In this document: positions 2,624 to 35,538 of the stretch, one piece after another
How positions within the stretch are numbered: position 1 is the stretch's first letter
How the letters are laid out: each line of letters starts with the position of its first letter
Virus record (IMG/VR): IMGVR_UViG_3300043331_000758
Span: 1 to 35,539 of that record
DNA: 35,539 nucleotides
Direction: 5' to 3' (one strand)
Source: a virus
Notes under the pieces: generated by a model
Databases searched by the model: none
What the model was told of the DNA's origin: nothing
Seen by the model: the letters and a program-made list of their open reading frames with translations, nothing else
Translations under genes and position numbers: made by a program

Positions 2624-3081
2624 GCGCTTGCGCCATCTGCGCCCGCGACCTGCGCAGCGTCAACCCCGAGGCCGGGCAGCCGACCTGTGGGCGGGCCAGC
2701 TGTCTGTCGACGCACAACGCGCTCACGGCGCTATGCGGCGGTCCCTACTTGGTGGCGCGCGTGGCTGAGGTCGCGCGCGACATAGCCGCGGCCCACGACC
2801 GCACGCTGGAGGAGGCCGTCGACGTAATCGTTGGCCGCGACCCGGGCGACGAGACACGCGAGGACATTTTGCCAGACCCGCCCGTGCCGCCCCGTCGCGA
2901 GGCCTGCGGCAACGTCGTCGTGGAGTCCCGCCCGTGGGACCACGCCCCGGACGTCTACCACGACCCCGACACGGGCGAGATTTTCGACCCGCCGCTAATG
3001 CGGAATGGGGACTCCATCAGGCTAGTTCCGCGCCCCAGCACCGACACCCCGCGGCCCCGCAGGCCGCACGAGAGGGGCTGA
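2620..3081 (+). CDS. Zinc-ribbon-like hypothetical protein (153 aa)
   Basis: 153 residues from the GTG at 2620 (overlapping the previous TGA). The N-terminus has CAICARD followed by CGRASC, a CX2C...CX4C pattern suggestive of a structural zinc site at residues about 4-29. The middle is a helix rich in Ala/Glu/Val and the C-terminal third is Pro/Asp-rich with YHDPDTGEIFDPP. No enzyme motif is visible. The fold and function are unknown; a zinc-stabilised nucleic-acid or protein-binding role is a guess. Confidence 0.5.
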   Translation: MSACAICARDLRSVNPEAGQPTCGRASCLSTHNALTALCGGPYLVARVAEVARDIAAAHDRTLEEAVDVIVGRDPGDETREDILPDPPVPPRREACGNVVVESRPWDHAPDVYHDPDTGEIFDPPLMRNGDSIRLVPRPSTDTPRPRRPHERG

Positions 3082-3087
3082 CCACTA

Positions 3088-3195
3088 ATGGAGACCCTGA
3101 AAACGGCCCTGCTGTGGCTGGCGCTGTGGGTCGGGTGCATTGCCGCCTGGCTGTACGGCACCAACGGCGTGAACGTTGGGTGGTGGCTGTGGTAG
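3088..3195 (+). CDS. Trp-rich membrane miniprotein (35 aa)
   Basis: 35 residues starting METLKTALLWLALW, one hydrophobic helix with seven tryptophans. The ribosome binding site is weak (GAGGGG about 12 bases upstream). It is followed by another one-helix miniprotein that overlaps it. The size makes the call tentative; codon usage and the neighbouring pattern of membrane miniproteins support it. Confidence 0.4.
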   Translation: METLKTALLWLALWVGCIAAWLYGTNGVNVGWWLW

Positions 3196-3269
3196 TCCAC
3201 GCGCTCATCGCGCTGGCGACCATGGCTTGGATTGCGGACGCTGTTTGGGCGTGGAGGCGAGGGGCTTGA
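3183..3269 (+). CDS. Possible membrane miniprotein (28 aa)
   Basis: A 28-residue open frame, GTG at 3183 or 3189, consisting of one hydrophobic helix (VVVHALIALATMAWIADAVW) and a basic end WRRGA. It overlaps the previous miniprotein and its TGA overlaps the TTG of the next gene. Reality as a gene is uncertain. Confidence 0.3.
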   Translation: MAVVVHALIALATMAWIADAVWAWRRGA

Positions 3270-3499
3270 ACGTCACCGCCGCCATCTGCCGCGTGAACGC
3301 ATTGCGCGCCGCCCAGCAGCACCTGGAGGCCCAGGTCGAGGCCGGGCTGGACACGCCGCACGCAACCCTCCAGGAGGCCCGGGAGGAGCTCGCGCGCATC
3401 GACGCCGAGCTCCGGGACTGGAAACGGGAGCTCCGAGACGAGCCAGACGCCGCCTACCTGTGGCGTCGACGGCGCAGCCGATACGTGGGGAGGAGGTAA
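3266..3499 (+). CDS. Small coiled-coil protein (77 aa)
   Basis: 77 residues, chosen to start at TTG 3266 (TTGA overlap with the previous stop, GGAGG ten bases upstream). From residue 10 on it is one long charged helix (HLEAQVEAGL, TLQEAREELARIDAELRDWKRELRD), a clear coiled-coil candidate, with a very basic C-terminus (WRRRRSRYVGRR) that might contact nucleic acid. The Shine-Dalgarno of the next gene (AGGAGG) lies in its last codons. Function unknown. Confidence 0.5.
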   Translation: MNVTAAICRVNALRAAQQHLEAQVEAGLDTPHATLQEAREELARIDAELRDWKRELRDEPDAAYLWRRRRSRYVGRR

Positions 3500-5197: not shown

Positions 5198-6033
5198 CCC
5201 AGCCAGCCCAGGCCCGCCGTGGCTCCGGCCGCGACGCACCGCGCACCTACGCGTGGCCGCCGCTGCCGCCCCACGACCTGGAGGTCGTGAGCGTGACGTC
5301 CGCCCTGAAGGCGCTGCCCAAGCCGTTCCTGATCGGCTGGGCCGCCAAGATGACGGCCGAGTGTGCCGTGGATCGGCACGACCTCGTGGGCAAGATGATT
5401 TCCGACGACGGCCCACGGGCGGCAATCGACTACCTGAAGGGCGCCCGCTACCGCGATATGAACGCCAAGGCCGATCGCGGCACGATCGTCCACGCGGCCG
5501 TCGAGGCCTACATGGAGGGCAAGCCGCTGTCTAAGGCGCAGGTACAGGAGGCGCTCCAGGAGGCGCGCGTGCCCCCGAAAATGTGGCGCTCGGCCGCCGG
5601 GATGATCGCGGGCGCGATGGAGTTTCTGTTCGACCACGAGCCCGACGTCCTGTGGTCTGAGGCCACCGTCTACTCGCGCCAGCACGGCTACGCGGGCACG
5701 GCCGACCTGATCGCCCGCATGAACGTGGGCGGCTCCATCCAGCCGGTCGTAATTGACTTCAAGACATCGAAGGCCATTTACGACGAGGTATCCGCCCAGC
5801 TGTGTGCCTACGCGCGGGCCGATTTCGTCGGCCAGGACGACGGCACGGAGGCCGAGCTCGTGCCCGGCCACCCGGGTCCCATTGGGTATGGCGTCTGTAT
5901 CAGGCCGATGGCCAGCGGGCGGTACGAGAAGGTCACGTTTGCGCTGACTGACGACCTGTTCGACCTGTTCCTGGGCTGCCTGACCGTCACCAATCGCCAC
6001 GGAGCGATGGCGTCAGCGAGGCGGCCCGGGTGA
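5194..6033 (+). CDS. PD-(D/E)XK nuclease, Cas4/RecB-like exonuclease
   Basis: 279 residues from TTG 5194 with AGGAGG at 5181-5186. Visible motifs of the RecB/Cas4 nuclease superfamily: GTIVHAAVEAY (His100), Glu156, GYAGTADLI with Asp171, VIDFKTSK with Asp188 and Lys190, and Q202xxxY206. This fits a metal-dependent exonuclease used in phage recombination or DNA end processing; there are no Cas4-type C-terminal iron-sulphur cysteines (only isolated Cys), so it is closer to the PDDEXK exonucleases next to phage replication genes. A recombinase partner (RecT/Erf) was not found beside it. Confidence 0.8.
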   Translation: MTQPAQARRGSGRDAPRTYAWPPLPPHDLEVVSVTSALKALPKPFLIGWAAKMTAECAVDRHDLVGKMISDDGPRAAIDYLKGARYRDMNAKADRGTIVHAAVEAYMEGKPLSKAQVQEALQEARVPPKMWRSAAGMIAGAMEFLFDHEPDVLWSEATVYSRQHGYAGTADLIARMNVGGSIQPVVIDFKTSKAIYDEVSAQLCAYARADFVGQDDGTEAELVPGHPGPIGYGVCIRPMASGRYEKVTFALTDDLFDLFLGCLTVTNRHGAMASARRPG

Positions 6034-6245
6034 GCGCCGAAGTCTCCATCACGATCGAGTTTGACGACCCGAAGCTAGGCCCGCTGAGTGGCCGCTGGGC
6101 CACCGTGAGGGTCGGCGGTCATCGCGTAATGACTGAGCTGGTCTACGACACGAACGCGGACGGGGAGCGGACTGAGGAGCAGGCGCGCGATAACGCGCTG
6201 GCAATCTTCTCCGCCAGGCTGTCCCGGCTGCTGGAGGAGCATTGA
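6030..6245 (+). CDS. Small hypothetical protein (71 aa)
   Basis: 71 residues from GTG 6030 (GTGA overlap with the nuclease). Three or four beta-strands (VSITIEFDD, RWATVRVGG, HRVMTELVYD) are followed by a C-terminal helix. It may be a small beta-sandwich or OB-like fold; no family is recognised. It contains the only GAGCTG hexamer of the window (6133-6138). Confidence 0.5.
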   Translation: MSAEVSITIEFDDPKLGPLSGRWATVRVGGHRVMTELVYDTNADGERTEEQARDNALAIFSARLSRLLEEH

Positions 6246-6460
6246 ATTACCAGCTGCCACACCCGCTGCCGCCCGAGACGCGGCCGCGCCCGGCCACGCT
6301 CGTCGACGGCATCATCATTTTCCCCGGCGGTACGTCACGCCCGGCCACGCGCGCCGAGCTCGCAGCCATGGCGCGCGGTGAGCGCATCACCGCCAACCCC
6401 AGCAGCGGTCGCCGCACGTGGTGCGTTGGGGAGCGCTATGGAGCGCTCGGACAGGGCTAA
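6242..6460 (+). CDS. Small hypothetical protein (72 aa)
   Basis: 72 residues from TTG 6242, which overlaps the previous TGA; a GGAGGAG lies six to twelve bases upstream. The protein is Pro-rich at the start with a short hydrophobic core (LVDGIIIFPGG) and a basic C-terminal half. Unknown family and function. The last 23 bases overlap the start of the next gene. Confidence 0.45.
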   Translation: MNYQLPHPLPPETRPRPATLVDGIIIFPGGTSRPATRAELAAMARGERITANPSSGRRTWCVGERYGALGQG

Positions 6461-6758
6461 CAGCCAGACAGCCGAGCAGGACACGCTGCCCGCCGTCCAC
6501 GTTGCCCGCGTCATCCTGAAGGCGGGGCAGGCGTGGCTGACGGAGCGTGACCTGGAGCTATGCGGCTACGACCCCGCCCTGGGCGACATCGTCCGGGTCG
6601 AGGGCCCGGCTGGCGACACGTATTACGAGCTCGCGGCCCGCATGGTCGCGCACCGGGTCGACCTGCGCAGCGTCACCGGATTGGTGTGGTGGCTCCAGCG
6701 CGTTCGGCCCACGACGGTCGACGTGGAAACGACAGACGACGCGGATGGGAGGGGGTGA
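6438..6758 (+). CDS. Hypothetical protein (106 aa)
   Basis: 106 residues from ATG 6438, with TGGGGAG upstream. The middle holds a compact domain (VARVILKAGQAWLTERDLELCGYDPALGDIVRVEG) and the end is acidic. The pattern of short strands with a Gly-rich turn may be a small beta-barrel, but no family is recognised. An upstream in-frame start (6378) would overlap the previous gene completely and has no better ribosome binding site. Confidence 0.45.
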   Translation: MERSDRANSQTAEQDTLPAVHVARVILKAGQAWLTERDLELCGYDPALGDIVRVEGPAGDTYYELAARMVAHRVDLRSVTGLVWWLQRVRPTTVDVETTDDADGRG

Positions 6759-6762
6759 ACGC

Positions 6763-7116
6763 ATGGCATTTTTCGACGAGTACCAAGACCTGGGTGGCGG
6801 CGGCTGGATGAAGGCCGACGAAAAGCAGGTCCTGATGGAGCAGGGCATTCCGTTCCAGGTCATCGACGTTGTCGACGACCCGACCAACACATACGAGGGG
6901 GCACCGAGCCCGCGGTACGTGGTCGTGGCGCTGGTGCCCAACCCAGAGGACGGAACCGAGGAGGAGCGAAAGCTCGGATTCCCCAAGGGCACCGTCGAGT
7001 CGCGCGACCGCATGCTGGTCCAGCTGGCCGAATACCTCCAGCGTGAGGACGCTGAGCAGGTCATCGTGAAGCTGGAGAAGGTCGGCCGGTCGCACGTGCT
7101 CCGGCAGGCGGACTAG
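6763..7116 (+). CDS. Conserved-looking hypothetical phage replication-region protein (117 aa)
   Basis: 117 residues from ATG 6763 (AGGGGGTG upstream), starting MAFFDEYQDLGGGGWM. The body alternates strands (PFQVIDVVDD, RYVVVALVPN, AEQVIVKLEKVG) with a helix (SRDRMLVQLAEYL). Strand order and its place before the polymerase genes would suit a single-stranded-DNA-binding or OB-fold protein, but the usual SSB motifs are not evident, so this is only a suggestion. Stop TAG overlaps the next GTG. Confidence 0.5.
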   Translation: MAFFDEYQDLGGGGWMKADEKQVLMEQGIPFQVIDVVDDPTNTYEGAPSPRYVVVALVPNPEDGTEEERKLGFPKGTVESRDRMLVQLAEYLQREDAEQVIVKLEKVGRSHVLRQAD

Positions 7117-7376
7117 TGGCCACCACGGGCGGGGGCGTCGACAGCGGCGCCCCCGAGCGGCCCCGGTGCCGCTGCCACGACGAGCCGATGGACCGATCGG
7201 GGCCGCGCTGGCAATGCGCCGTCAAGCGCCGGGCGCGCCAGCTGGCCGCCTACCACGACGACGCCCCAGCGAAAAACTACGCCCGCGTGCGCCGAGCGCT
7301 CCGGGCCCGCATCGCGCGCAAGCGCGAGCGCCTGAACGACCTGGAGGGACAGCTTGCGCAAGAAAACGAAGGCTGA
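7116..7376 (+). CDS. Small basic zinc-knuckle-like protein (86 aa)
   Basis: 86 residues from GTG 7116. RCRCHDEPM followed by WQCAVKRRARQ gives a Cys-X-Cys-His ... Cys cluster at residues about 18-34 that may bind one zinc. The rest is a strongly basic helix (ARVRRALRARIARKRERL). A nucleic-acid-binding role is plausible by composition only. Its end overlaps the next gene by 23 bases. Confidence 0.5.
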   Translation: MATTGGGVDSGAPERPRCRCHDEPMDRSGPRWQCAVKRRARQLAAYHDDAPAKNYARVRRALRARIARKRERLNDLEGQLAQENEG

Positions 7377-7575
7377 AATGCAGCGTGCCCGCGTGGCCAA
7401 GGTCACGCGCACCATCGTCCGCCTGAAGCACAGCCTGGCCGCCGACGAGGAGCTCAATTCCGTGCTCCCCGACACGCTGGCCGAATTCGACGAGGCCGTG
7501 GCCGCCGGGGAGCTCATGGAGCTCCGCGGTTTCCTGGGGCCCGTGCTTGGGATGAACGATGAAGCTGGCGCGTAG
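7354..7575 (+). CDS. Small helical hypothetical protein (73 aa)
   Basis: 73 residues from TTG 7354, with GGAGGG six bases upstream. The first 25 residues are very basic (RKKTKAEMQRARVAKVTR), the remainder helical and acidic. Overlaps the preceding gene by 23 bases and the following exonuclease by 17. No family is recognised. Confidence 0.45.
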   Translation: MRKKTKAEMQRARVAKVTRTIVRLKHSLAADEELNSVLPDTLAEFDEAVAAGELMELRGFLGPVLGMNDEAGA

Positions 7576-8182
7576 CAGCGCGCTGCGCATCCTGGATTTC
7601 GACGTCGAGGTCCGCCCCATGGCCTTCTACGCGGGCGACTACGTCACGAAGCAGCCCACGGCCATTGCCTGGAAATTCATTGGCGAGCGGGGCCGCGTCG
7701 AGGTCGCCCTGGTGGGCGAATCCTACGACACCCGCCGCACGTTCGCGGAGGAGGTCGAAATGCTGGAGCGCTTCCGCGAGGCCTACGACGCGGCCGACAT
7801 CGTCACGGGCCACTACATCAGGGGATTCGACCTCCCCGTCCTGTGTGCCCGCATGATGCGGCACCGGCTACCGCTGCTCGGGGCCAAGGACACCCACGAC
7901 ACCAAGGGCGACCTGGCGCGCGGTCACGGTCTCAGCAAGGCGCAGGAAAACCTGGGCGCCATGTTTGAGCTCGCCCACCCGAAGGTGCCGATGAACACCA
8001 CGCTGTGGGAGCTCGGAAACGCCCTCACGCCCGAGGGCATCGAGGCCACCCGCAAGCGTGTCGTTGGAGACGTGCGGCAGCATATCGAGCTCCGGGCCAC
8101 GATGCTGGAGGACGGGCTCCTAGGCCCGGTCAAGCCGTGGTCCCCCCAGGGCGGTCGAGCGGCGGCGGCCTACGCGCCGTGA
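7559..8182 (+). CDS. Stand-alone DEDD 3'-5' exonuclease domain (RNase H-like)
   Basis: 207 residues from ATG 7559. A DnaQ/family-B-polymerase-like exonuclease fold: Asp15 and Glu17 in LDFDVEVRP (Exo I), HYIRGFDLPVL with Asp91 (Exo II), and VGDVRQHIEL with Asp171 (Exo III). The RGFDLP block resembles the exonuclease half of family B polymerases. It is separate from PolA (10279), which has its own exonuclease domain, so the phage has two. Possible roles are extra proofreading, RNA primer or end trimming, or recombination. It overlaps the PrimPol gene by GTGA, which places it in the replication operon. Confidence 0.75.
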   Translation: MKLARSSALRILDFDVEVRPMAFYAGDYVTKQPTAIAWKFIGERGRVEVALVGESYDTRRTFAEEVEMLERFREAYDAADIVTGHYIRGFDLPVLCARMMRHRLPLLGAKDTHDTKGDLARGHGLSKAQENLGAMFELAHPKVPMNTTLWELGNALTPEGIEATRKRVVGDVRQHIELRATMLEDGLLGPVKPWSPQGGRAAAAYAP

Positions 8183-12819: not shown

Positions 12820-13195
12820 CACCTGCCCCTGCCGAGAGGCGCTTGACGACTTGCTCAATCTGCTCGTCACAAACAGGGCCTTCTTGGACGATGAGGAACT
12901 ACAGAAAGCGGCGTTCGCTGGTCGCGAAGCCCTCGCCGCGCCGTGCGGGTGTGAGGAGGCGCTGCAAAGGGCCGTCTACCTTGCCGAGCATCTCTGGCAG
13001 ATGATCCCGCCGGAGGTTTGGCGCGAGCACGGAGCCGAGTATCAGGGCCAGTACGAGGGCGACTACTACGCCGAGAAGGTGCGCGAGGAGCTAGCCCTCC
13101 TCCGCGAGCGGAGCGCCGACCCTTTCGACAGCCAGCGTTGCCGAGCCTCAAAGGGTGAGGATTGCGGACAGCCTGGGTGCTGCGAGCGGAGCTAG
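12812..13195 (+). CDS. Cys-containing hypothetical protein (127 aa); last gene of the rightward unit
   Basis: 127 residues from ATG 12812 (MPDTCPCREALDDLL); in-frame GTG codons in the tandem repeats would lengthen it by five residues per repeat. It is mostly helical with paired Cys at the start (CPC), middle (CGC) and end (CRASKGEDCGQPGCC), possibly a zinc site. DNA is less GC-rich than the replication genes. The TAG shares a CTAG with the stop of the oppositely oriented serine recombinase, so the genes converge with a four-base overlap. Function unknown. Confidence 0.55.
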   Translation: MPDTCPCREALDDLLNLLVTNRAFLDDEELQKAAFAGREALAAPCGCEEALQRAVYLAEHLWQMIPPEVWREHGAEYQGQYEGDYYAEKVREELALLRERSADPFDSQRCRASKGEDCGQPGCCERS

Positions 13196-13596
13196 CCGCT
13201 CGGTAGCGCGACGACGGCCTCCGCCTGAGGACCGCGCTCGGGCGTGCTGATGTCCTCGGGAGCCTCGGGGGCGTACACGTGGCCGCCTGCGTCGTCGAAG
13301 GCGCGGAGGAGGTCATAGGCCTGGGCAGCGTCGCGGCTGAAGCGGTCGATCCAGGCCACGACGATGCCCTGCGACTCGCCCGCCCGCACGCGCTCCAGGG
13401 CGCGCTGGAGGCCCTCGCGCTCGACGGTCCCGCCCGATCGGTCGATGTCGGGCGGCAGCACGATGCCAACGTCGAGCCCGCGCCGTTCGGCGTATGCGCG
13501 CGCCAGCTGCTCCTGCTCCTCGGGGGAGTGGAAACGCTCGTCCTCGCGGCCAGCGCGGCGGCTGACCCTGATGTAGATGTCGACGGGTAGGCTCAT
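13192..13596 (-). CDS. Serine recombinase catalytic domain only (resolvase-like, 134 aa)
   Basis: Starts at ATG 13596 with GAGGAG upstream (an in-frame upstream GTG would lack one). DIYIRVS gives Arg10 and nucleophile Ser12, followed by helix EEQEQLARAYAERRGL, IDRSGG (Arg53) and WIDRFSR with Arg85 and Arg88, the conserved pattern of serine resolvases/invertases and large serine integrases. The protein ends soon after the catalytic fold: it lacks the long E helix and helix-turn-helix of resolvases (about 180 aa) and the recombinase and zinc-ribbon domains of integrases (450+ aa). No continuation is found in other frames downstream. It may be a remnant, a domain working with a host protein, or a regulator of DNA topology. 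It is transcribed apart from the late operon, left of the terminator. Confidence 0.8.
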   Translation of the reverse strand: MSLPVDIYIRVSRRAGREDERFHSPEEQEQLARAYAERRGLDVGIVLPPDIDRSGGTVEREGLQRALERVRAGESQGIVVAWIDRFSRDAAQAYDLLRAFDDAGGHVYAPEAPEDISTPERGPQAEAVVALPSG

Positions 13597-13615
13597 GGTG
13601 CTGCTCCTCGTTATA

Positions 13616-13657
13616 GCAACCGTGGGCGTAACCGCCCCCACCACTTGTGCCGGTTGC
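13616..13657. promoter_or_regulatory. Inverted repeat upstream of the serine recombinase gene
   Basis: GCAACCG (13616-13622) and CGGTTGC (13651-13657) form 7-bp arms around a 28-bp centre that itself contains an imperfect dyad (TGGGCG/CGCCCCCA). It lies 20 bp before the recombinase ATG, in an otherwise non-coding stretch, with a TATAAC on the minus strand at 13610-13615. It may be an operator, promoter region or recombination half-sites for the recombinase; no direct proof. Confidence 0.4.
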
Positions 13658-13931: not shown

Positions 13932-14198
13932 CTAGAGGTAGTGCTGGGCTGCGACGAGCGCCGCAGCGACGATGGCGTTGGCGGCCGCGACCAGGCGGAT
14001 GACGCGCGAAGTGAGGTCCTCCAGGCGGCCGCCGTTTGCAGTCACGGTCTCTTTCAGGTCGTCGAATTCTCGGCGGCTGACTTTGTCGTCCAGCTTGGCG
14101 TCGATCGAATCCAGCTTTTCGTCGATGCGCTGGAATAGCTCCTTGGCTGTGTACCTGACCACGGGGGCGGACGCTTCGCTGGGCGTGTTCTCCGTCAC
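13932..14198 (-). CDS. XhlA-like lysis membrane protein (coiled coil plus C-terminal TM)
   Basis: 88 residues from GTG 14198 (GTGA overlap with the amidase stop). The middle is a heptad coiled coil (IDEKLDSIDAKLDDKVSRREF) and the last 25 residues a hydrophobic helix (LVAAANAIVAAALVAAQHYL). This order is that of XhlA/haemolysin-like and similar phage lysis proteins that sit beside a holin. It probably associates with the membrane and helps holin or lysin release. The assignment rests on architecture and neighbours. Confidence 0.6.
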   Translation of the reverse strand: MTENTPSEASAPVVRYTAKELFQRIDEKLDSIDAKLDDKVSRREFDDLKETVTANGGRLEDLTSRVIRLVAAANAIVAAALVAAQHYL

Positions 14199-14926
14199 AG
14201 GGCCCGGCGCCTTTTGATCGTGTCCAGGGCCGCACCCGCCTTCTCGCGGAGCGCCTGCTTGGCGCGGGTGATGCGCCCATCGCCCTCGCGGACGGCTCCC
14301 GTGCGCGCCAGCACCCGCCCAGCGGAGTTGTAGGCCGTGTAGATGAAGTAGCGCCAGCGGTAGCGCCGCACGCGCGTCAAATACCAATCCCAGGGGAAGT
14401 GTGGGCCGGGGTCGTGGTGCGAGCTCATGCCAAACGCCTGGGAGACATCGACGTGGCCAGCGAACCCGCGGGCGCCAGCCCGCAGCTGCGCCACAGACAG
14501 CTTCCGCACGGGGATGCCATACTGCGCCGACCACTTGGCCGTCACTTTGGCCGAGTTGCGCAGCGTCTTGCGCCCGTGCTTGCGGTCGAGCCATTGGGCC
14601 CGCGTCTGCTTGGCGAAACCGTCGTGCTCGATGCCAAGGCTCCGGCTGTTCGGGGGAGCGTGCCAGGCAATGTCGCGGTCCCGGACGCACCGCACGGTCG
14701 AGTCTGAATCGGCACAGACGTGCGCCGAGCTCCCGCCGGAGCTCACCGTCGAGCGTTTCACCGAGGAGCCGCTGGCCCGATTCTTGGGCTGATTGTGGAA
14801 AAAGGCAGCGACCCGCTCGGCGCTGTCTGAGCCCTCGGGGAATTCCTCGTCATGAATGACGATGACGTCGATGTCGCCACGGCCGCGACTCGCGCGCGAG
14901 TAGTTGGCGGCCTCGATGAACAGCAC
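14195..14926 (-). CDS. Endolysin: N-acetylmuramoyl-L-alanine amidase (Amidase_2 type)
   Basis: 243 residues from GTG 14926 with AAGGAGG nine bases upstream. It cuts the bond between MurNAc and L-Ala in peptidoglycan. Seen: strand VIVIHDEEF with zinc ligand His25, SSAHVCADSDSTVRCV, IAWHAPPNSRSLGIEHDG, and the C-terminal zinc motif SSHHDPGPHFPWDWY (His170/171 and DPG). The last 60 residues are a basic extension (RVRRYRWRYFIYTAYN and AKQALREKAGAALDTIKRRRAL) that may bind the cell wall. It lacks a signal peptide, so it needs the holin. A second lysin lies just upstream. Confidence 0.88.
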   Translation of the reverse strand: MLFIEAANYSRASRGRGDIDVIVIHDEEFPEGSDSAERVAAFFHNQPKNRASGSSVKRSTVSSGGSSAHVCADSDSTVRCVRDRDIAWHAPPNSRSLGIEHDGFAKQTRAQWLDRKHGRKTLRNSAKVTAKWSAQYGIPVRKLSVAQLRAGARGFAGHVDVSQAFGMSSHHDPGPHFPWDWYLTRVRRYRWRYFIYTAYNSAGRVLARTGAVREGDGRITRAKQALREKAGAALDTIKRRRAL

Positions 14927-24173: not shown

Positions 24174-25976
24174 CTACCTTCCTAGTCCGGCGCTGCCGCG
24201 CGTTTTGGGGTTGGTCGCCGGGGTGTCGTGTACGCCGCCGCCAGGAGCTCCGCGCGTGGCTGGCGAGCTCGCGGGAGTGGTCAGGCGCCCGGAGCCCGCG
24301 AATGCCCGCGTGGGGCCGCCGGGGCTCGTAATCTCAAAGCTGGCCGCCGTGCCGGTGATGATGAAGGCGCCGAGCTCGGCCAGGAGCGTGCGGTCAACCT
24401 GCGTGCCCACCGGAGCGCCCGCCGTGACGATCGCGCCGGGGTCGGCATGGAGCACGCGCCCGGCCGCGACGACCGCTGAGCGCCCGGTGATGGCGTAGGC
24501 GCCGGGAGCGGCGTCGATGAGTCGGGCGGCCAGGAGGCCCGCGGGGGCACCCGCGACGCTATACGCGCCCGGGGCGGCCTGGAGCACGCGCCCGGCCGCG
24601 ACTCCGGCCTGCGACCCGGTGACGGCGTAGGAGCCTGGGGCGGCCTCGATCAGACGATCAGCCACGGCCCCGAGCGCTGCGCCCGACACCGCGAAGGCGC
24701 CAGGGTCCGCCAGGAGCGCGTAATCGCCCGCGCCCGGGATGGTGACGACCAGGTCGACCTCGACCCCGGTGACGGCGTAGGAGCCTGGGGAGGCTGCCAG
24801 CACGCGATCGGCCAGCAGGGACACGGCCGCGCCCGAGACATCGTAGGCGCCTGGAGCTCCGACAAGCACGCGGTCGGCCAGCGTGCCAGCCTCGGAACCC
24901 GTCAGCGCGAATGCGCCAGGGGCTGCGTCCAGCAAGCGGTCGGCCAGCGCCGCCACGGGCTGCCCGCTGACGCTGTAGGCGCCGGGGGAGGCCAGGGCAA
25001 CACGGTCGGCCAGGGCTCCGGCCTCCGCCCCGGTCAGCACGTAGGTGCCGGGGGCGGCGTCCATGAAGTAGCCACGGGCAGCGATGGCGTCTGCACCGCT
25101 GACGTCGAACGCGCCGGGGGCGGCGTTCAGGAGGCGGTCGGCCAGCGCCGCGAGCTCGACGCCCGTGACGACGTAGGAGCCTGGAGCGGCTGCCACCACG
25201 CGCCCGGCTGGCACGCCAGCGTCGGCGCCCGTGACGGCGTAGGCGCCGGGGGAGGCGCTGAGGGCGCGATCCGCTAGTGCTCCGACGGACGTTCCAGAGA
25301 TGGCGCAGGAGCCGGGCGAGGCGTCGAGCGTGTACGAGGCGGCCGCGGATGCCGGACGCAACGCGCCCAGCTTGGCGCACCACGGGCGGTTACCATACGT
25401 CGCCGTTCTTGTGCCCGATGCGCCGTGCGATGCCAACGTCTCGGACGCAATCTCCAGTGAGTCCCGACTCGCGCCGGATCCCGTCGTGGAGGCCTCGGCC
25501 TCCTCGTTCATGCCGCTGGGCGGAGTCCACCCCTCGTTACGACGCGCGTATCCGAAGAAGACGAGAGCGGCGCCGTCGGTGGTCGTCGTTATAGAGGGCG
25601 CCTGCGGGGCAGCGCTGCTCCCCGTCTGCGGCGTGGGCATGGCTGCGTCGATCGGCGTCGAGTTGTCGACGCCGCGCGCCACGATCAGGCCCGCGCCCGC
25701 GGCCACGCTTAGGCCGGAGTCGAACGTGTACGTAGAGGGCTCGCTGGCCGCCGACGCGACGACCTTATACCACTCGTTTGTGGCCAGGATGGTCTGCGCG
25801 TCGTTGGGCTGGCCGAACGCCGTGAATCCCGACGCAGGTGCCCAGCTGGGCGAATTGCCCAGCGCCACCATGCTGACCACCACGACGTCCCCGTCCTGGA
25901 GGCCCGCCGGTTTGTTGAAGGTTACGGATCCTCCGGCATCCTGCGCCGTGGCAGGGTCGGAGAATGTTATGGCCAC
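24174..25976 (-). CDS. Virion protein with about fifteen 22-residue repeats
   Basis: 600 residues from GTG 25976. Residues 1-210 form an immunoglobulin/jelly-roll-like domain (GSVTFNKPAGLQDGDVVVVS, STYTFDSGLSVAAGAGLIV, DGAALVFFGYARR) of the type found at the N-terminus of phage surface fibres. Residues about 214-550 are fifteen tandem units of consensus ADRxLxAAPGAYxVTGxxAGAL, 22 residues each with one six-residue insertion in the ninth; period and Gly/Ala/Tyr pattern suggest a beta-helix or solenoid rod. The C-terminus is Gly/Pro/Thr-rich and disordered. It lies between head-tail adaptor and small head genes, so a head fibre or decoration is more likely than a tail fibre; not proven. Confidence 0.75.
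   Translation of the reverse strand: MAITFSDPATAQDAGGSVTFNKPAGLQDGDVVVVSMVALGNSPSWAPASGFTAFGQPNDAQTILATNEWYKVVASAASEPSTYTFDSGLSVAAGAGLIVARGVDNSTPIDAAMPTPQTGSSAAPQAPSITTTTDGAALVFFGYARRNEGWTPPSGMNEEAEASTTGSGASRDSLEIASETLASHGASGTRTATYGNRPWCAKLGALRPASAAASYTLDASPGSCAISGTSVGALADRALSASPGAYAVTGADAGVPAGRVVAAAPGSYVVTGVELAALADRLLNAAPGAFDVSGADAIAARGYFMDAAPGTYVLTGAEAGALADRVALASPGAYSVSGQPVAALADRLLDAAPGAFALTGSEAGTLADRVLVGAPGAYDVSGAAVSLLADRVLAASPGSYAVTGVEVDLVVTIPGAGDYALLADPGAFAVSGAALGAVADRLIEAAPGSYAVTGSQAGVAAGRVLQAAPGAYSVAGAPAGLLAARLIDAAPGAYAITGRSAVVAAGRVLHADPGAIVTAGAPVGTQVDRTLLAELGAFIITGTAASFEITSPGGPTRAFAGSGRLTTPASSPATRGAPGGGVHDTPATNPKTRGSAGLGR
24327..25337 (-). repeat. Array of about fifteen 66-bp coding repeats
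   Basis: The DNA behind the 22-residue repeats. Copies keep the period exactly (66 bp) and share the core for PGAY/PGSY-x-VTG but differ at the third codon positions and in the variable residues, so the array is old and diverged compared with the identical 15-bp repeats at 12751. Some pairs are more alike, for example units with ASPGSYAVTGVE and AAPGSYVVTGVE. Confidence 0.85.
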
Positions 25977-26587: not shown

Positions 26588-27100
26588 TCAAACGCTCCTA
26601 GTGTTGTCCCACCATGCGCCCCACTCGGCGTATGGGTCTGGCTGCTGTTGCTGCTCCTCGGGCGCGAAGGCCTCGATCCCCGCGGCCTCGCGGCGCTTCA
26701 GCGGACGGGCTGGGTTGCCCACCCAGGTCTCGCCCGCGGGTACATCGTGGGTGACGACGGCCCCGGCTCCGATGCGAGCTCCGGCTCCGACCCGCTTGCG
26801 GGGGAGCACGAGCGCGCCGATGCCACACTTGACGCCGGGCCCGAGCTCGGCGTAGCCGCCGATGACCGTGCCGGGGGCGAGCTCGCACCCGTCCCCAATC
26901 GTGGCGTCGTGGCCCACGTGTACGCGCTTCATCAGCCAGGCGCGCGGGCCGATTCTCGTCGGCCGCTCGATACCGGCGTCCACCGTGACGAGCGCCTCGA
27001 TGACGGCGTCAGGGGCCACCAGCGGCGTGATGCCAGCGATGACGTGGCGGTACTCGCGCGACTCGGGCGGCTGGCCGATGACGGCCGTGGGGTGGATCAT
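26588..27100 (-). CDS. Hexapeptide-repeat acyltransferase (left-handed beta-helix)
   Basis: 170 residues from ATG 27100 (ATGA overlap with the glycosyltransferase). Hexapeptide steps with I/V/L and Gly run through residues about 45-140 (VHVGHDATIGDGCELAPGTV, GAGARIGAGAVVTHDVPAGE), including the loop VGNPARPLKRRE that marks acetyltransferases of the sugar/LpxA-WbbJ class. A conserved catalytic His is probable at VGHD. The C-terminus is charged and Gln-rich (EEQQQQPDPY). Such enzymes move an acyl group from acyl-CoA to a sugar or amino sugar. With the coupled glycosyltransferase it suggests a glycan modification made by the phage. Confidence 0.8.
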   Translation of the reverse strand: MIHPTAVIGQPPESREYRHVIAGITPLVAPDAVIEALVTVDAGIERPTRIGPRAWLMKRVHVGHDATIGDGCELAPGTVIGGYAELGPGVKCGIGALVLPRKRVGAGARIGAGAVVTHDVPAGETWVGNPARPLKRREAAGIEAFAPEEQQQQPDPYAEWGAWWDNTRSV

Positions 27101-27873
27101 CGGGCGAGCTCCTTATGGGTACGGCGCGCCAGGTCGACCAGGTGCGCCGGATACCTACGGGCCAGGAGGTCCCAGGGCGGGACGATCGGGCCATAGCCCA
27201 GGTTGCTGACGAGGCCCGGGAACGGGGTGATGTTGACGTCAGACTTGAAGTCGACCCGGCAGACATCGTGGGGGTCGTGGAACACCCACGAGGGCGGCGG
27301 CCGGAGGCCGAGCGCCATGCTGCCGTCGATGCCGCGCTGTTTCTCCTCGCCCACCGGGCGGCCGCGCGAATGCTGGAGCGCATTTTCGGGGACGATCCAC
27401 GGGATGACTCCCGTGCGCCCGCGAGCTCGACAGCGGCGGGCCTGTCCGCCGATCAGGTCGACGATCAGGATTTCGCGCCCGGTGACGACCTCAGGGCCGG
27501 GGCGCCAGACGACCGGGCGCCCGGGGGTGGGCTGGGGCTCGGGCGCCTTACGCGCCGGGAGCCGGTCGAACAGGTCGGCGTGCACCCAATCGTCGCTGCC
27601 CAGGGTGACGACGTAGTCAGCACCGTGGCGCATGGCGTACTCGATGCCGTCATTGACCTTGCGGCCCACAAAACGGTTGTCGCGCTCGACGGTGTGGAAC
27701 CCGTGCCCGCGCGCGATGTCCAGGTTGTCGTCGTCAGCGACGACAACGCAATGCGCCTCCAGCCCGCGGGCGGCTAGCTCGGTCACCAGGTGTGCCCGCT
27801 GCGCGAGCGCCAACCGGGTGACAGCGAAACGCCGCCACGCGGGGGAGACTAGCCAGACAGTCGGCGGAGCCAA
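27097..27873 (-). CDS. Glycosyltransferase, GT-A/family 2-like
   Basis: 258 residues from TTG 27873. N-terminal Rossmann-like fold (PTVWLVSPAWRRFAVTRLAL), then a nucleotide-sugar site: HCVVVADDDNLDIARG (Asp47-Asp49), NDGIEYAMRHGADYVVTLGS with Asp94-Asp95 at LGSDDW. The C-terminal part has Trp/Pro-rich acceptor-type segments (VIPWIVPENALQ, SWVFHDPHDVCRVD). It lies between capsid and small virion proteins in the head cluster and is coupled to an acyltransferase, so the acceptor is probably a phage surface protein or a host wall sugar. No acceptor can be read from the sequence. Confidence 0.75.
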   Translation of the reverse strand: MAPPTVWLVSPAWRRFAVTRLALAQRAHLVTELAARGLEAHCVVVADDDNLDIARGHGFHTVERDNRFVGRKVNDGIEYAMRHGADYVVTLGSDDWVHADLFDRLPARKAPEPQPTPGRPVVWRPGPEVVTGREILIVDLIGGQARRCRARGRTGVIPWIVPENALQHSRGRPVGEEKQRGIDGSMALGLRPPPSWVFHDPHDVCRVDFKSDVNITPFPGLVSNLGYGPIVPPWDLLARRYPAHLVDLARRTHKELAR

Positions 27874-30222: not shown

Positions 30223-31689
30223 TCACGCCGATTCAGGCGCGGGTGGCTCCTCGGGCTCCTGCTCCTCCGGGGGAGCGGGCGCGTTCAGCGCGCGCACGAG
30301 CTCGTCCCGGGCGAACATGGACAGGAAACGCGCAATCTGAGTCTGGCTGTAGCCCAGGTCCTCCAGCGCGGCCTCGTGGGGGATGAGCCCGGCACCGAAT
30401 TTCTTGATAACGGCGTCCGTGAGCTCGCCCTCCGTCTGCGTCTCGGGGTCGGCCCAAACGATTTCGGAGTCGACCGGCGTATCCTCGGCGCCAGCGAAGC
30501 GACGCGCCAGGCGGAGCGCCTCCTCCAGGCCCTCACCGAACGGGCGGTGCTTGCGACGCACCTTGGCGACGAGCCCCGACTCCGCCGAGCGGATGGCGTC
30601 ACCCGACGGTGACTGGCCCTCCTGAATCAGGTAGTGCCGTGGCGTCCGCGTCGTGACAGCAATATGCAGGACCTTTTGCTCAATGGCCCTGATGTAGCCG
30701 TCCAGGTCGGTGGCGCTGAATTCACCGAATTTGACCTCCGGGTCCTCGGCCTGCCACAGCTTGTCGATGGCGACGTCGAAGGGCTCGACCGGCCGACCGT
30801 CGCTGTCCTCCATGATGCGGAGGCCGACGGCCCAGCGCTGCCGGTGGGCACCGAAATAGCCCGCGAGCGCGAGCAGGAACAGGAACCCGTTTATGGAGGC
30901 CTGAACGCGGTATACGTCCGCGAGCTCCGACTCCCCCTCCATCAGGATGCGGGGGCGGTTGCGGAGCGGGATGATGGGCACGACACCCAGCGGGTTGGCC
31001 ACGAAGTCGTTGCCATCGTCGAGCGGGACCCAGCGCACGGTCGACCCGGCGCTGTGGCCGGGGTTGGGCGTCGTATCCTCGTGCGGCCAGGTCGTCGCGG
31101 GCCTGATGCCCGCGCTCGGGGCGGCGGCGCGAAACTTGTAAATGCCCTCGGGGAGGTAGACGTTCGCGCGGCGCTCGCCCGTCCACTCGTCGTCCCACAG
31201 CTTCAGGGCGGCGGCGCGGCGGCGGAAGTTGCTACCGGCCTCATACGCCACGATCGTCTGGAGCGGGTCCTCGACAGCGATTGTGGGGTACTCGTCGCCC
31301 GCCCACACCGACAGGTAGGACACGCCCTTTATGAGCGCCTCCAGAAACGCGGCCTGTGACTCCTGGTCCATGCTGTTGGCCTGCCAAATGTCCCAGGTGG
31401 CCTTATCGGAAGTCGCGTCCGAGCTCGCGCTCAGCCGGAACCCGTCGACGCGCATGCGCTCCTCCGTCGCGTCGACGACCAGGCGCATGAAGTTGCTCCG
31501 GGAGTCGTCGAGCAGCTGGCGGAATTCGCTGCGCATTTTCGCGTTGTGGGCCTCGGTAACGAAGGGCAGCGGGTGGTCGCCCGAGTAGTAGTCGGACATC
31601 AGCTGCATTCGCTCCTGGCGAGCGAACAGCTGCGCCGACATACGGCGGAGCCACCACTCGGGGGAGCCGGGGCGGGCGGATTCGGCCAT
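30223..31689 (-). CDS. Portal protein
   Basis: 488 residues from ATG 31689 (sharing a base with the terminase stop). Start SPEWWLRRMSAQLFARQERM; DYYSGDHPLPFVTEAHN, SNFMRLVVDATEERM, LEDLGYSQTQIARFLSMF are SPP1 gp6/phage portal family blocks; the clip-stem-wing region lies in about 200-420. A twelve-fold ring at one capsid vertex for DNA entry and exit. Length typical. Confidence 0.93.
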   Translation of the reverse strand: MAESARPGSPEWWLRRMSAQLFARQERMQLMSDYYSGDHPLPFVTEAHNAKMRSEFRQLLDDSRSNFMRLVVDATEERMRVDGFRLSASSDATSDKATWDIWQANSMDQESQAAFLEALIKGVSYLSVWAGDEYPTIAVEDPLQTIVAYEAGSNFRRRAAALKLWDDEWTGERRANVYLPEGIYKFRAAAPSAGIRPATTWPHEDTTPNPGHSAGSTVRWVPLDDGNDFVANPLGVVPIIPLRNRPRILMEGESELADVYRVQASINGFLFLLALAGYFGAHRQRWAVGLRIMEDSDGRPVEPFDVAIDKLWQAEDPEVKFGEFSATDLDGYIRAIEQKVLHIAVTTRTPRHYLIQEGQSPSGDAIRSAESGLVAKVRRKHRPFGEGLEEALRLARRFAGAEDTPVDSEIVWADPETQTEGELTDAVIKKFGAGLIPHEAALEDLGYSQTQIARFLSMFARDELVRALNAPAPPEEQEPEEPPAPESA

Positions 31690-33284
31690 TAGTGGAACCC
31701 AGCGACGCGGCCGGGGCGCTTCGGTTTGGCGTCGGCCGCGACGGCGTCTCCGCGGGCCTCGTATGCCAGCACAGCCGCCATCGCCGCGTCAATCTTGCGC
31801 GGGGAGTCGTGCCGATCCTTGCTGAGGGTGAACATCTGACGATGCTCGTCGTCGTAGACCGACAGCTTGCGCCTCCTCGCGTTTTTCAGGTGTCTGGCGA
31901 ATGTCTCGTCGCCCGAATGGGTTGCGTCGCCCGCCGTCAGCGCGTCGGTGTACCGGCGCACCGCCCACGCAATCTGCCGGGGGCGGTTTGTGTGCCAGGG
32001 CAGCACGCGCTTGGAGCTCCAGCGCCCCTGCCAGCGGTCGACCAAGTGGTCGATCCATTGGGGGTCGCAGTAGACGCGCCAGACGCTGTAACGGTCGAAG
32101 GCCTCGACCATCGCGCCGTCGACATCGTCCGCCGGGTGCTCGTAAGCGTCGGGGGCGTGCTCGGGGCGCTCCCAAATGCCGATCGGCCATTGGTGGCCGG
32201 TTTCGACCTCCGTGGCCACGATGGCCAGGGCGTCAGCGAAGCGGGCCCCGTCAACTCCGATGACCACTAGGGCACCGTCGGGGACAACGCGCTCCGCCGC
32301 GCGCGCGTCGACGAGCTCGGGCGCGAATGCCGCGTCCTCCCCCGCCTGCTTGTGGTTCAGAAAAAATCGCTCAGCCTGGGCGGCCTCGCCGCGGGCCAGC
32401 AGGGCCTCGATTTCGGCGTCGATGCGGTCGGGGTCGACCCACCACGAGTCACCGTAGACCTTGCGCATGGCGCGGCGCCGCTCCTGCTTGTTGCGGATGC
32501 TGCCGCCGCCGGGCTCGACGTCGTCGAGCAATACGCCGGGCTCCCCCGACTCGGACGTGCGCTGGGCCACGCTGTCCTCGCGCGGGTCCCAGGCGTTGGT
32601 CGTCTCCAGGAAGCGCCCGCCCATGCCCGCCAGGTTTCGACGCTGTGTGTCGGCCAGGCGCAGGCCGCCGTTAGCCGCCACCCAGCTGTGGGTTTCGTCC
32701 TGGGGCGCGAACGTCAGCCGCTGACCCAGGCGCGAGCGGGCCGCGGCCGTCACGGGCTCGATGACGCCGCCGCTGGGCAGGTTGATTCGGGTTAGCCCGG
32801 TATCCCAGGCGGCCCCGCCGACGGTGCCGCGCTCGATCATCGGGAGCAGCGAGCGCCAAACGTTGTCGGTCTGATCCTCGGACGCGGCCGTAACCTGAAT
32901 CCAGGGCGTGGCCCACGGCTTGCCTACCGGCTGGCCCTGGGCGTCCCAGCCGTCGGGGAGCACCGGACCCTCGGCCTCGGCGCAAATGATCGACGACAGG
33001 AATGGGCCTTTGCCCCATTTCTGAGGGCGGACAAGCTGCCCGCCGCGGCCGTAGTAGAAACGGCCGCTGTCCGGCCGTACCCGGTAATACCGGAGCAGGA
33101 ACCGGAGCATTTCGTCCGTGAGGAGGTAGGGCTCGCCCGCGTGCTCACCGTCGGGGATGACGCATCGAGCCTCGATCCACTCGGCTACGTCGTAGCCAAG
33201 CGTGGGAAACACGCGGCACGCCGGGCAGCGCCCGTCCTCGTTCCAGGCGTCACCGTTGCACTCGCGGCACCGCGGCGCCGCCAC
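31689..33284 (-). CDS. Terminase large subunit with N-terminal zinc ribbon
   Basis: 531 residues from GTG 33284. Two CxxC pairs (Cys6, Cys9, Cys20, Cys23) precede the motor. ATPase: unusual Walker A VRPQKWGKG (about 85-92, Gly in place of Ser/Thr) and Walker B/catalytic Glu197 in LTFAPQDETH. Nuclease: Asp345 in VIGVDG, Asp407 in YCDPQWID and Asp499 in RKIDAAM, an RNase H-like metal site. It packages DNA into the portal and cuts it. Terminase-type proteins of actinophages often have such variant P-loops. Confidence 0.92.
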   Translation of the reverse strand: MAAPRCRECNGDAWNEDGRCPACRVFPTLGYDVAEWIEARCVIPDGEHAGEPYLLTDEMLRFLLRYYRVRPDSGRFYYGRGGQLVRPQKWGKGPFLSSIICAEAEGPVLPDGWDAQGQPVGKPWATPWIQVTAASEDQTDNVWRSLLPMIERGTVGGAAWDTGLTRINLPSGGVIEPVTAAARSRLGQRLTFAPQDETHSWVAANGGLRLADTQRRNLAGMGGRFLETTNAWDPREDSVAQRTSESGEPGVLLDDVEPGGGSIRNKQERRRAMRKVYGDSWWVDPDRIDAEIEALLARGEAAQAERFFLNHKQAGEDAAFAPELVDARAAERVVPDGALVVIGVDGARFADALAIVATEVETGHQWPIGIWERPEHAPDAYEHPADDVDGAMVEAFDRYSVWRVYCDPQWIDHLVDRWQGRWSSKRVLPWHTNRPRQIAWAVRRYTDALTAGDATHSGDETFARHLKNARRRKLSVYDDEHRQMFTLSKDRHDSPRKIDAAMAAVLAYEARGDAVAADAKPKRPGRVAGFH

Positions 33285-33287
33285 GGT

Positions 33288-33686
33288 CTAGACCGCGCGG
33301 AGTCGCGCGGGTCGGGGAGCCGGGGCGGGCGCGGCCTCGTCCGCGGGGGCCTCGACGACGCGCCAGCGGTTGTCGCGCTTGCCCTTTTGCGTCAGTCCCA
33401 GGCTGTCCATCCGCAGCCGGATTTCGCTGGCGTGGGCCGCCGGGTTAGAGGCGTGCAGGCGCAGGGTGTCGAACGCGAAAGCGCGATCGGACGAGGTCCA
33501 CAGCGCCGTCACCGGGTCGGCGCGCCAGCCCTCGTACATTTCGACCGACGCGGCCGGGAAGGGGTGCTCCTCGGGGAGCTCCGGCAGGACCGGGTCAGCC
33601 AGCGGCGCCAGGTCGACCCACTCGCCCCGCGTGGGGGCGTTGCGGCGTCGTCGGTTGGTGCTGGGTGCTGGGCCGTGCCCGGCCAT
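33288..33686 (-). CDS. Terminase small subunit-like protein
   Basis: 132 residues from ATG 33686 with CGGAGG upstream. The Arg-rich start (GHGPAPSTNRRRRN) and compact body (WVDLAPLADPVLPELPEEHP, YEGWRADPVTALWTSSDRAF, LRMDSLGLTQKGKRDNRWR) match small terminase-like proteins beside TerL in actinophages. It recognises the packaging site and regulates TerL. A 186-bp gap upstream could contain the cos/pac site. Confidence 0.75.
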   Translation of the reverse strand: MAGHGPAPSTNRRRRNAPTRGEWVDLAPLADPVLPELPEEHPFPAASVEMYEGWRADPVTALWTSSDRAFAFDTLRLHASNPAAHASEIRLRMDSLGLTQKGKRDNRWRVVEAPADEAAPAPAPRPARLRAV

Positions 33687-33872
33687 GGTGTCCTCCGTCG
33701 GAGTGGTCCGCCTTGCGGCGTGGGTTGGGGTGGGGGCGGCCGGGAGCTACCCATACGCCGCCCCGCCCTGGGTGTGATTGCCGAGCCCGGGCCGCGGCCG
33801 CGGTTGTCCGAGCTCGGGGTGGGAGGTCCGCCGCCCACCACGGCAGCCGCGGCAGCCAGCCGCGGCAGTTAC
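33687..33872. other. Non-coding gap before the small terminase gene
   Basis: 186 bp without a credible gene. It is very GC-rich, has GCCGCGGCAG repeated twice close together (about 33845-33870) with a partial inverted copy, and two CGG-rich palindromic stretches near 33793-33802. Lying directly before the terminase genes, it is a plausible place for a packaging (cos/pac) site, but nothing in the sequence proves it. Confidence 0.3.
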
Positions 33873-34724
33873 TCAGTCGGCGTCGAAGCCGATTACGATG
33901 TCCGCCCCCGGCTGGGCGAGCGCCTCCAGGTCCCCGGCCTCGGTGTGGTCCTCGACACCGGCCAGGAAGTGGAAACCCTGCTCGCGCAGGAAGCGGTGAA
34001 TCTCGTGCGGCGGGCAGAAAAAGCCGATATGCGTGACCGCGTCGGCATTGAACATCGTGCCGTTCACGCGGATGCGCGAAGGCACGCCCATGAGCTCCAA
34101 GGTCTCGCCCAGGAACACGGCCCCGCCGCTGTTGCCGAAAATGGACGGCGCGCTCGTCTGCCAGTAGGGGAAGTAGTCGATCTGGACGTCCTTACCCGTG
34201 AGCATGCCGTGGGTGGGGAATGGCGGCTGACCCATCCCGCAGCCGACGACGTACAGGGCGTCGAAAATATGGACGTCCTTGGCCTTCTCGCGCGGCAGCA
34301 GCTGGGCCACGTGGTCGAATCGCTGATTGGTGCGCAGGCGGAGCAGCGCCAGGTCGCGCTTTTCGTGGTACGCCATGATTTCGGCGTCGGCCGTCGTCCG
34401 CGCGGTGATGGTCGACCGATTCTTGTAGCTGAAGGCCTCGATCTGTACGAGCTCGCGGTAGTCGCGCGTGACGTCCTTGCCCTGGGTCGGGTCGTACTTC
34501 TTTTCGACCCGGATGGCGTCGCTGATGACGTGGTGATTCGTCAGCGCGTAGGTGCTGAACCCGAGCTCACCGTCCTCGTCGGGCTCGGTGCGCTCCTGAC
34601 AGTAGATGATCGTGCCGGAGCCCGTCGCGCGCCCTGACTTCACCCGGATGGTCGGGTATAGGCAGCGCTGGTGGAGGAGCGTGTTTTCAGCGTCCCAGGC
34701 TGCGGGGTCCACAACGGGGCTCAC
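33873..34724 (-). CDS. Trypsin-like serine protease
   Basis: 283 residues from GTG 34724 (coupled by GTGA to the preceding small gene). Chymotrypsin fold with all three catalytic residues: His65 in YALTNHHVI, Asp124 in EKRDLALLRL, and Ser199 in IFGNSGGAVF. Two insertions (residues 42-56 and 75-110) are acidic or basic. No signal peptide or PDZ domain. Trypsin-like proteases are unusual in tailed phages; cleaving a capsid or tail protein, or a host defence or regulatory protein, are both possible. Its place next to the terminase genes does not decide. Confidence 0.88.
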   Translation of the reverse strand: MSPVVDPAAWDAENTLLHQRCLYPTIRVKSGRATGSGTIIYCQERTEPDEDGELGFSTYALTNHHVISDAIRVEKKYDPTQGKDVTRDYRELVQIEAFSYKNRSTITARTTADAEIMAYHEKRDLALLRLRTNQRFDHVAQLLPREKAKDVHIFDALYVVGCGMGQPPFPTHGMLTGKDVQIDYFPYWQTSAPSIFGNSGGAVFLGETLELMGVPSRIRVNGTMFNADAVTHIGFFCPPHEIHRFLREQGFHFLAGVEDHTEAGDLEALAQPGADIVIGFDAD

Positions 34725-34921
34725 CAGGTCCTCCTCACCGTGTAGTGGGGGTCGAGGTCGAAGCGGCCGGGGCCCGCGGGGACGACGTCCGACTGACGCT
34801 CACCGATGGGGGACGGCTCCAGGCGGATGATCCAGCCGCCATCGGTCACAGTCACGGAAACGCCGCGCGTGAGCACCTGCTCGGCGGCGGCGGCCAGGGC
34901 GGAAACGAGCGGGTCGTTCAT
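34721..34921 (-). CDS. Small hypothetical protein (66 aa)
   Basis: 66 residues from ATG 34921. A helical start (DPLVSALAAAAEQVLTRG) is followed by strands (VSVTVTDGGWIIRLEPSP). The end overlaps the protease start, so the two are probably translated together; it might be a protease partner or inhibitor, but this is speculation. No family is recognised. Confidence 0.5.
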   Translation of the reverse strand: MNDPLVSALAAAAEQVLTRGVSVTVTDGGWIIRLEPSPIGERQSDVVPAGPGRFDLDPHYTVRRTW

Positions 34922-35091
34922 GGTCGTGCCTCCTCGTCGTGCTGGTCGCTGATCCGATTGAGCTCGGCTAGGAGCTCGGCCATCGTGCGGTCGACGTGGT
35001 CACGGAGCAGCACGAGCCCGCGCTCCAGGCGGGCTATTCGGGCCTCGTGCGTGAGCTCGGCGGGGTGCCGGGGGCTCGTATCAGGCGCCAC
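34918..35091 (-). CDS. Small helical hypothetical protein (57 aa)
   Basis: 57 residues from GTG 35091, preferred because a GAGG lies about nine bases upstream; an in-frame GTG at 35118 would give 66 residues. The second half is a coiled-coil-like helix (RIARLERGLVLLRDHVDRTM). ATGA overlap with the next gene. Function unknown. Confidence 0.45.
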   Translation of the reverse strand: MAPDTSPRHPAELTHEARIARLERGLVLLRDHVDRTMAELLAELNRISDQHDEEARP

Positions 35092-35187
35092 AGCGGGGCG
35101 CCTCAGTCTCGTACACACCCGTAGCGACTGACCACCGCGGGCCTAGGCCACCCCGGCTAGTGGTCCTACCCCACCCCCTGGGCGCCG

Positions 35188-35538
35188 TCATCGGCTGCCT
35201 GGCTGGGTGGGCGTGGCGCTGGCGCGAGCTCGCTGCGCTTCCGCCGCTGTCTTGCGGCGGTGGCAGGGCTCCGGGTGTATCGGCCGCATGTTGTCCTCGT
35301 GGTCGGCGCCGCCCTCAGCTAGCGGGACGACGTGGTCGGCCACGGTTGCGCCAGGCTGGCAGCAGACGTGGCACACACCGTCGTGCCGACGGAGCACGCG
35401 CCGAGCCCGAGCCTGCCGGGCCCAGCCGCTGACCCCGGTACTCCGGGTGCGATCCCTCCCGGGCCATGCTCGGGTGTGGGTGGTGCAGTACGATCCTCGG
35501 TCGGTGAGCTCGGGGCAGCCGGGCTCAGCGCAAACCTT
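35188..35538 (-). CDS. HNH endonuclease (5' end beyond the window)
   Basis: The frame is open from TGA 35188 to the right edge, giving 116 residues; the start lies outside. Seen: a zinc-binding N-terminal segment KVCAEPGCPELTDRGSYC, then a second CHVCCQPG and the HNH core VADHVVPLAEGGADHEDNM with HPEPCHRRK. Together with TerS and TerL downstream it matches the HNH gene found next to terminases of cos phages, where it nicks or cuts concatemers with TerL. A GTG at 35397 would cut the domain, so it is not the start. Confidence 0.85.
   Translation of the reverse strand, partial: KVCAEPGCPELTDRGSYCTTHTRAWPGRDRTRSTGVSGWARQARARRVLRRHDGVCHVCCQPGATVADHVVPLAEGGADHEDNMRPIHPEPCHRRKTAAEAQRARASATPTQPGSR

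Follow-up and report, generated by a model that had tools for sequence, protein, structure and literature searches.

The window, which is the whole stretch of DNA analysed here (35,539 bases), corresponds to an entire IMG/VR record and may itself possibly be a genome fragment. Judged by its large terminase, whose best match among cultured phages is that of Streptomyces phage Kromp (43%), the window phage groups with the actinobacteriophages. The locus under study comprises a protease gene, two coupled small open reading frames (ORFs) and an HNH endonuclease gene (Table 1). Downstream of the protease follow, in this order, the genes for the small terminase, the large terminase, the portal, a MuF-like protein, the scaffold and the major capsid protein. 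In relatives of this phage, the usual neighbour of the HNH endonuclease is the small terminase.

Table 1. Positions of the features discussed in the text; coordinates without a prefix are those of the window
Feature	Position	Strand	Remarks
Predicted PDZ-less HtrA/trypsin_2-type serine endoprotease	33873..34724	(-)	283 aa; triad H65/D124/S199
Small gene, candidate partner	34721..34921	(-)	66 aa; stop overlaps the protease GTG by 4 nt
Third coupled small ORF	34918..35118	(-)	66 aa; 4-nt overlap with the candidate partner gene
HNH endonuclease	35188..35538	(-)	Truncated at its 5' end by the end of the contig; borders the insertion on the upstream side
Terminase small subunit	33288..33686	(-)	Downstream boundary of the insertion
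Large terminase	31689-33284		Downstream of the small terminase
Amidase endolysin	14195-14926		19 kb from the protease
Intein-bearing protease	L030:6010-7437	(-)	The three lie in separate family branches
Intein-bearing protease	L045:4018-5913	(+)
Intein-bearing protease	L077:4964-6433	(+)

The protease starts with a GTG codon, just 5' of which lies the Shine-Dalgarno sequence AGGAGG, and the coupling to a small gene that a first-pass annotation had described was confirmed by the overlap of this start with the preceding ORF. The codon score per codon of the protease is on the level of those of the terminase and portal genes, dN/dS against close homologues ranged from 0.14 to 0.40, and the catalytic triad was complete in 68 of 68 full-length family members of a second, independent sample. 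These results indicate that the protease is more than a chance ORF, namely a real gene under strong purifying selection. An ORF of 498 aa on the other strand (33141-34637, (+)), which covers the protease DNA, was discarded as an antisense ORF that arises artefactually from the G+C content of 69%. Promoter and terminator scans gave uninformative output.

Several other genes of the window were noted by the way. A 600-aa protein of the structural block (24174-25976, (-)) contains numerous copies of a ~22-aa repeat (..APGAYxVTGxxAGxLADRxL..) and may be a fibre or decoration protein. By eye, two genes directly after the major capsid gene were recognised as resembling a hexapeptide-repeat acyltransferase (26588-27100, (-)) and a glycosyltransferase-like protein (27097-27873, (-)), a pair for which a role in virion or host-surface glycosylation is possible. 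Between the lysis and replication genes lies a short, apparently truncated serine-recombinase-like ORF (13192-13644, (-); IRVSRRAGREDERFHSPEEQ...).

Enzyme class and active site

The protease matched the Pfam family Trypsin_2 (PF13365) with an E-value of 1.4e-13 and 52.2 bits versus a gathering cut-off of 27.6. His65, Asp124 and Ser199 (GNSGG), which the first-pass annotation had named as the triad, were found exactly so in the translation of the gene, in the contexts ALTNHHV, KRDLALL and FGNSGG, respectively. An AlphaFold2 model computed with 40 family sequences (pLDDT 91.4, pTM 0.90) has an N-terminal helix and, after the second barrel, two short helices and a disordered acidic C-terminal tail. 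Its best PDB matches in Foldseek were bacterial DegQ, DegP and DegS (E ~1e-12; TM up to 0.8 when normalised to DegS-deltaPDZ), and a profile search of PDB sequences agreed in preferring HtrA. From sequence and model, the product is predicted to be a chymotrypsin-fold enzyme (clan PA, S1) with a double beta-barrel of the trypsin/HtrA type. No PDZ domain was detected by Pfam or in the model, and a hydropathy scan found neither a signal peptide nor a hydrophobic segment in the proteases of the window clade.

The two-barrel fold, the GNSGG sequence and the triad are common to the window protease and the HtrA/Deg enzymes (MEROPS S1C; DegS, DegQ, DegP). However, the window protease has only about 18% identity to them, scores 28.9 bits with the NCBIfam DegP/HtrA model (TIGR02037), far below the cut-off of 416.2, is devoid of PDZ domain, signal peptide and membrane anchor, and carries a signature of its own, Hxx..LYPx[VI]R[VI]..GSGT..TYxLTNHHV. 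Although the best single-sequence phmmer matches were glutamyl endopeptidases (V8-like, S1B; E=0.003), the profile search prefers HtrA, and the window protease lacks a propeptide and is not a secreted protein. The chymotrypsin fold had at first been regarded as unexpected in a tailed phage; the fold assignment stands, but the surprise was overstated, as scattered trypsin-like phage proteases are already on record (PHROG 9683), among them those annotated in T4-like cluster N phages (PMC10783043). Such scattered proteases (phrog_9683/phrog_11383; SUAG_00063 of Sulfitobacter phage pCB2047-A; Microcystis phage Mae-JY35; jumbo phage LR756511) have the same Pfam domain, and that of LR756511 shares the motif LHQQCLYPTI with the window protease, but their identity is 24-33% and none is accompanied by the coupled small gene of the window. 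The three that were read, from pCB2047-A, Mae-JY35 and LR756511, start with a signal-peptide-like N-terminus, unlike the window protease.

Homologues lacking the triad, which would have spoken against a functional enzyme, were not encountered in the second sample, whose search patterns did not demand that His and Ser be present together. In the first sample, the Asp was present in 54/54 and the nucleophile Ser in 51/54 members. A change of this Ser to Cys in the remaining three was considered and rejected, as these proteins (L030, L045 and L077) carry an intein exactly before the catalytic Ser (FGN-C...HN-SGG); counting them, the triad is present in 54/54. The Pfam family Intein_splicing matches all three, L077 just below the curated cut-off; L030 and L077 hold mini-inteins, and L045 has a LAGLIDADG domain. 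Since the +1 extein residue of the intein is the nucleophile itself, these proteases are presumably active only after splicing, which makes the inteins a candidate for a natural on-switch.

A further residue, His232 (T-H-[MLI]-G, in the strand before the C-terminal helix), was nearly invariant in both samples (45/49 and 58/68), members of the second sample without its equivalent having Trp or Phe instead. It is possibly a residue of the substrate pocket.

A mobile cassette of protease and small gene

Four close homologues of the protease were found in IMG/VR, with identities of 78% (L002, matched part), 65% (L003), 71% (L007) and 85% (L004, partial gene). When the reading frames of the window were compared with these four contigs, the protease and its small ORF were the sole strong match (63-84% protein identity); the other matches were a DNA polymerase of 28% in L007 and an exonuclease of 39% in L004. 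The surroundings differ as well: the protease adjoins ribonucleotide reductase/thioredoxin genes in L003 and lies in a portal-exonuclease region in L004, and in these related cassettes it is not beside the terminase. Conversely, none of 53 loci that encode a related large terminase (44-73%) has a protease near this gene; in about 20 of them, the sequence extends for at least 2.5 kb on its upstream side. The protease was likewise missing from 18 relative contigs (15-62 kb) that were searched whole. The gap between the HNH and small terminase genes measures 174-371 bp in four of the relatives versus ~1.5 kb in the window. The site being closed up without the cassette, the cassette has been either inserted here in the window or lost elsewhere. 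Since the protease and the small gene are essentially the only DNA common to four otherwise unrelated phage contigs, they form a mobile accessory ('moron') cassette that moves between unrelated phages. The third coupled ORF, whose product is charged, coiled-coil-like and without a family match, possibly belongs to the inserted cassette too, because it is not found in the terminase relatives.

A small ORF of 54-69 aa lies immediately 5' of the protease, overlapping or abutting it, in the window and in all four close homologues (5/5). In leave-one-out profile searches among 12,518 fragments, the small ORFs of the window, L002 and L004 proved homologous (E 3e-7 to 3e-9); the homology of that of L007 is marginal (E 0.005, still the best remaining match), and that of L003 corresponds by position only. 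AlphaFold2 predicted for the 66-aa product of the window (pLDDT 69) a helix (4-19), a beta hairpin (21-34) and a disordered tail, and no known domain was recognised in it with Pfam, PHROGs, NCBIfam or PADLOC. The dN/dS of the small gene was 0.3-1.2, several pairs being near saturation. In all five loci, the protein ends in R-x-W. The Arg codon is CGG or CGA, and not the Shine-Dalgarno-like AGG, in L002 and L003, and the Trp codon lies outside the protease start codon in L004 and L007; as these codons are not dictated by the translation signals there, selection on the tail at the protein level is plausible. Nucleotide constraint may explain part of the conservation, because the protease's own ribosome-binding site and start codon lie in the same stretch. 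The proposal that the small protein is a partner of the enzyme thus gains from its upstream position in 5/5 loci and from homology in three of them plus one marginal case; by co-occurrence and coupling, it is a natural candidate for that role.

Size and distribution of the wider family

When IMG/VR was scanned with a degenerate DNA pattern that encodes TYxLTNHHV, 67 stretches were retrieved, and every ORF obtained from them was a homologue of the window protease (E 5e-16 or better). A profile-guided scan of the same collection yielded 358 loci with relatives confirmed by tblastn, the best 80 of which were kept and examined. A slightly longer signature pattern that matches 66 of the 67 loci did not occur in any of 84,980 bacterial and archaeal genomes, where as an exact pattern it reaches the narrow family and leaves remote cellular relatives, such as HtrA itself, outside. 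A bacterial origin was rejected after scans of genome contigs gave no relative. Collections of cultured phages and plasmids contained no close homologue and at most distant trypsin-like genes with 24-33% identity, and a search of the open literature returned no paper describing the protease family. By these sequence searches, the family in the narrow sense is virus-restricted and has hardly any members in cultured phages.

About half of the wider family have an N-terminal hydrophobic signal segment. On a tree for which the inteins had been removed from the aligned proteins (for this purpose only), the label exported or cytosolic needs five changes, at least three of them forced by well-supported branches; the window clade is recovered with a support of 100/100 on a long stem. 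Exported and cytosolic forms would suit targets in different host compartments.

The genes around family members are diverse and include terminase, tail fibre, endolysin, DNA repair exonuclease and DNA polymerase genes. A comparison of recurrent neighbour families across the loci found no conserved partner gene outside the window clade. A general association with the terminase was dismissed as well: large-terminase genes occur near some members, but their position is not conserved. Small membrane genes were enriched directly beside the protease (18/72 vs 25/322, p=1e-4), as determined with a simple gene caller and a hydropathy threshold, which makes these and the following numbers approximate. 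For exported members the difference was significant (16/63 vs 9/127, p=0.001), and for cytosolic members, the window type, it was not (12/79 vs 16/195, p=0.12). In two cultured phages, the trypsin-like gene stands close to lysis genes: in Sulfitobacter phage pCB2047-A, an exported form directly follows the endolysin, the holin and two more membrane-protein genes, and in Microcystis phage Mae-JY35 the gene comes after a lysozyme gene and several small genes.

Possible roles of the protease

The gene precedes terminase and portal in the same strand order, which would suit an enzyme of virion maturation with a capsid, scaffold, tail or ejected protein as its substrate. Tailed-phage prohead proteases (S78/U35, S14-like, S77) are likewise serine proteases encoded near packaging genes, and nothing else in the head region of the window was identified as a prohead protease; phrog_1522 ('head maturation protease') matched the 222-aa MuF-like protein with merely positions 64-236 of its 591. 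However, the major capsid protein of the window starts with MAISNFQPEVW, directly with the fold and without a delta domain, next to a separate scaffold. Among relatives whose capsid gene was readable, those without the protease have capsid proteins of the same uncleaved type that start alike (VAISNFIPEVW in L083, MAISQFVPELW in L082) and share the scaffold. As the protease is missing from relatives that share the terminase, portal, scaffold and type of capsid protein, the head module evidently works without it, and the related cassettes hold the enzyme away from the terminase. A prohead protease was therefore rejected on the closed sites in relatives and the N-termini of the capsid proteins; the fold of the window enzyme also differs from those of the prohead proteases. 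Virion-protein processing, which the first-pass annotation had offered among three hypotheses, is improbable.

A lysis-stage enzyme that, upon holin opening or just afterwards, attacks host proteins associated with the envelope or controls lysis proteins seems unlikely for the window, although part of the family fits it. The L007 cassette comes after two endolysin-like genes (peptidoglycan-binding part) and a gene for an 85-aa membrane protein, L002 has a weak Rz-like spanin match directly downstream (E=6e-4), and both the enrichment of small membrane genes and the gene order in the Sulfitobacter phage point the same way. By contrast, the amidase endolysin of the window is remote from the protease, the cassettes of L003 and L004 stand in the other surroundings given above, and the window clade is devoid of a signal peptide. 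For the exported branch, a lysis-stage role at the envelope is attractive. It is distinctly improbable that the enzyme serves counter-defence or superinfection control, in which it would destroy one specific defence protein of the host, or else a protein of competing phages, while the small protein silences it in its own cell. A coupled small gene and a patchy distribution that is confined to phages and spreads horizontally would agree with such a function, but no specific observation suggests a defence target, and a comparison with anti-phage defence proteases in PADLOC gave weak matches generic to the trypsin domain and no strong system match.

The explanation that we prefer, and hold to be reasonably probable, is that the mobile cassette encodes a cytosolic, PDZ-less HtrA-type endoprotease with a coupled cofactor for late, host-directed proteolysis. 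A host-directed accessory protease is suggested because the enzyme is dispensable to the head module, mobile, catalytically conserved and able to switch compartment in the course of evolution. Host-directed action, there as the destruction of a defence protein, had been another of the three initial hypotheses, and it is the one best supported by the patchy and mobile distribution and by the absence of the gene from phages with the same head genes. Patchily distributed peptidases of jumbo phages have likewise been argued to be host-directed (PMC7824862).

In this host-directed scheme, the protease would be expressed late, together with the packaging and structural operon, and would probably be active as made, because HtrA-type domains need no zymogen cleavage. 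It would cut host proteins related to defence, cell takeover or the envelope and lysis, and thereby improve phage yield; for the cytosolic window clade, the simplest reading is a cytosolic host target. The small alpha-beta-beta protein would bind the protease, most probably by way of its R-x-W tail, and either restrain it as an inhibitor or chaperone or activate it. C-terminal peptides switch DegS, and the small protein may be comparable to these in logic, not in homology. More tentatively, and with clearly less confidence, we consider that the virus-restricted HtrA branch as a whole could be a mobile weapon of numerous unrelated, uncultivated phages that has repeatedly switched between cytosolic and exported forms, and in which the small protein of the window clade replaces the PDZ domain as regulator via R-x-W.

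Phage proteases beyond those of maturation have been poorly explored. What appears to be new here is the size and virus restriction of the family, the transfer of the protease and the small protein as a cassette, and the inteins at the catalytic serine. A large, coherent family that is easy to express, has a fully conserved active site and moves with a candidate regulator makes it testable which host proteins are destroyed by phage proteolysis late in infection, and how the enzyme is kept safe beforehand.

Two further genes were observed on L002, the phage contig with one of the close cassettes. One (5970-7601, (+)) encodes a fusion of NUDIX and ADP-ribosyltransferase (PF03496) domains, and the other (2550-3278, (+)), near the cassette, a secreted-looking DUF1996 protein.
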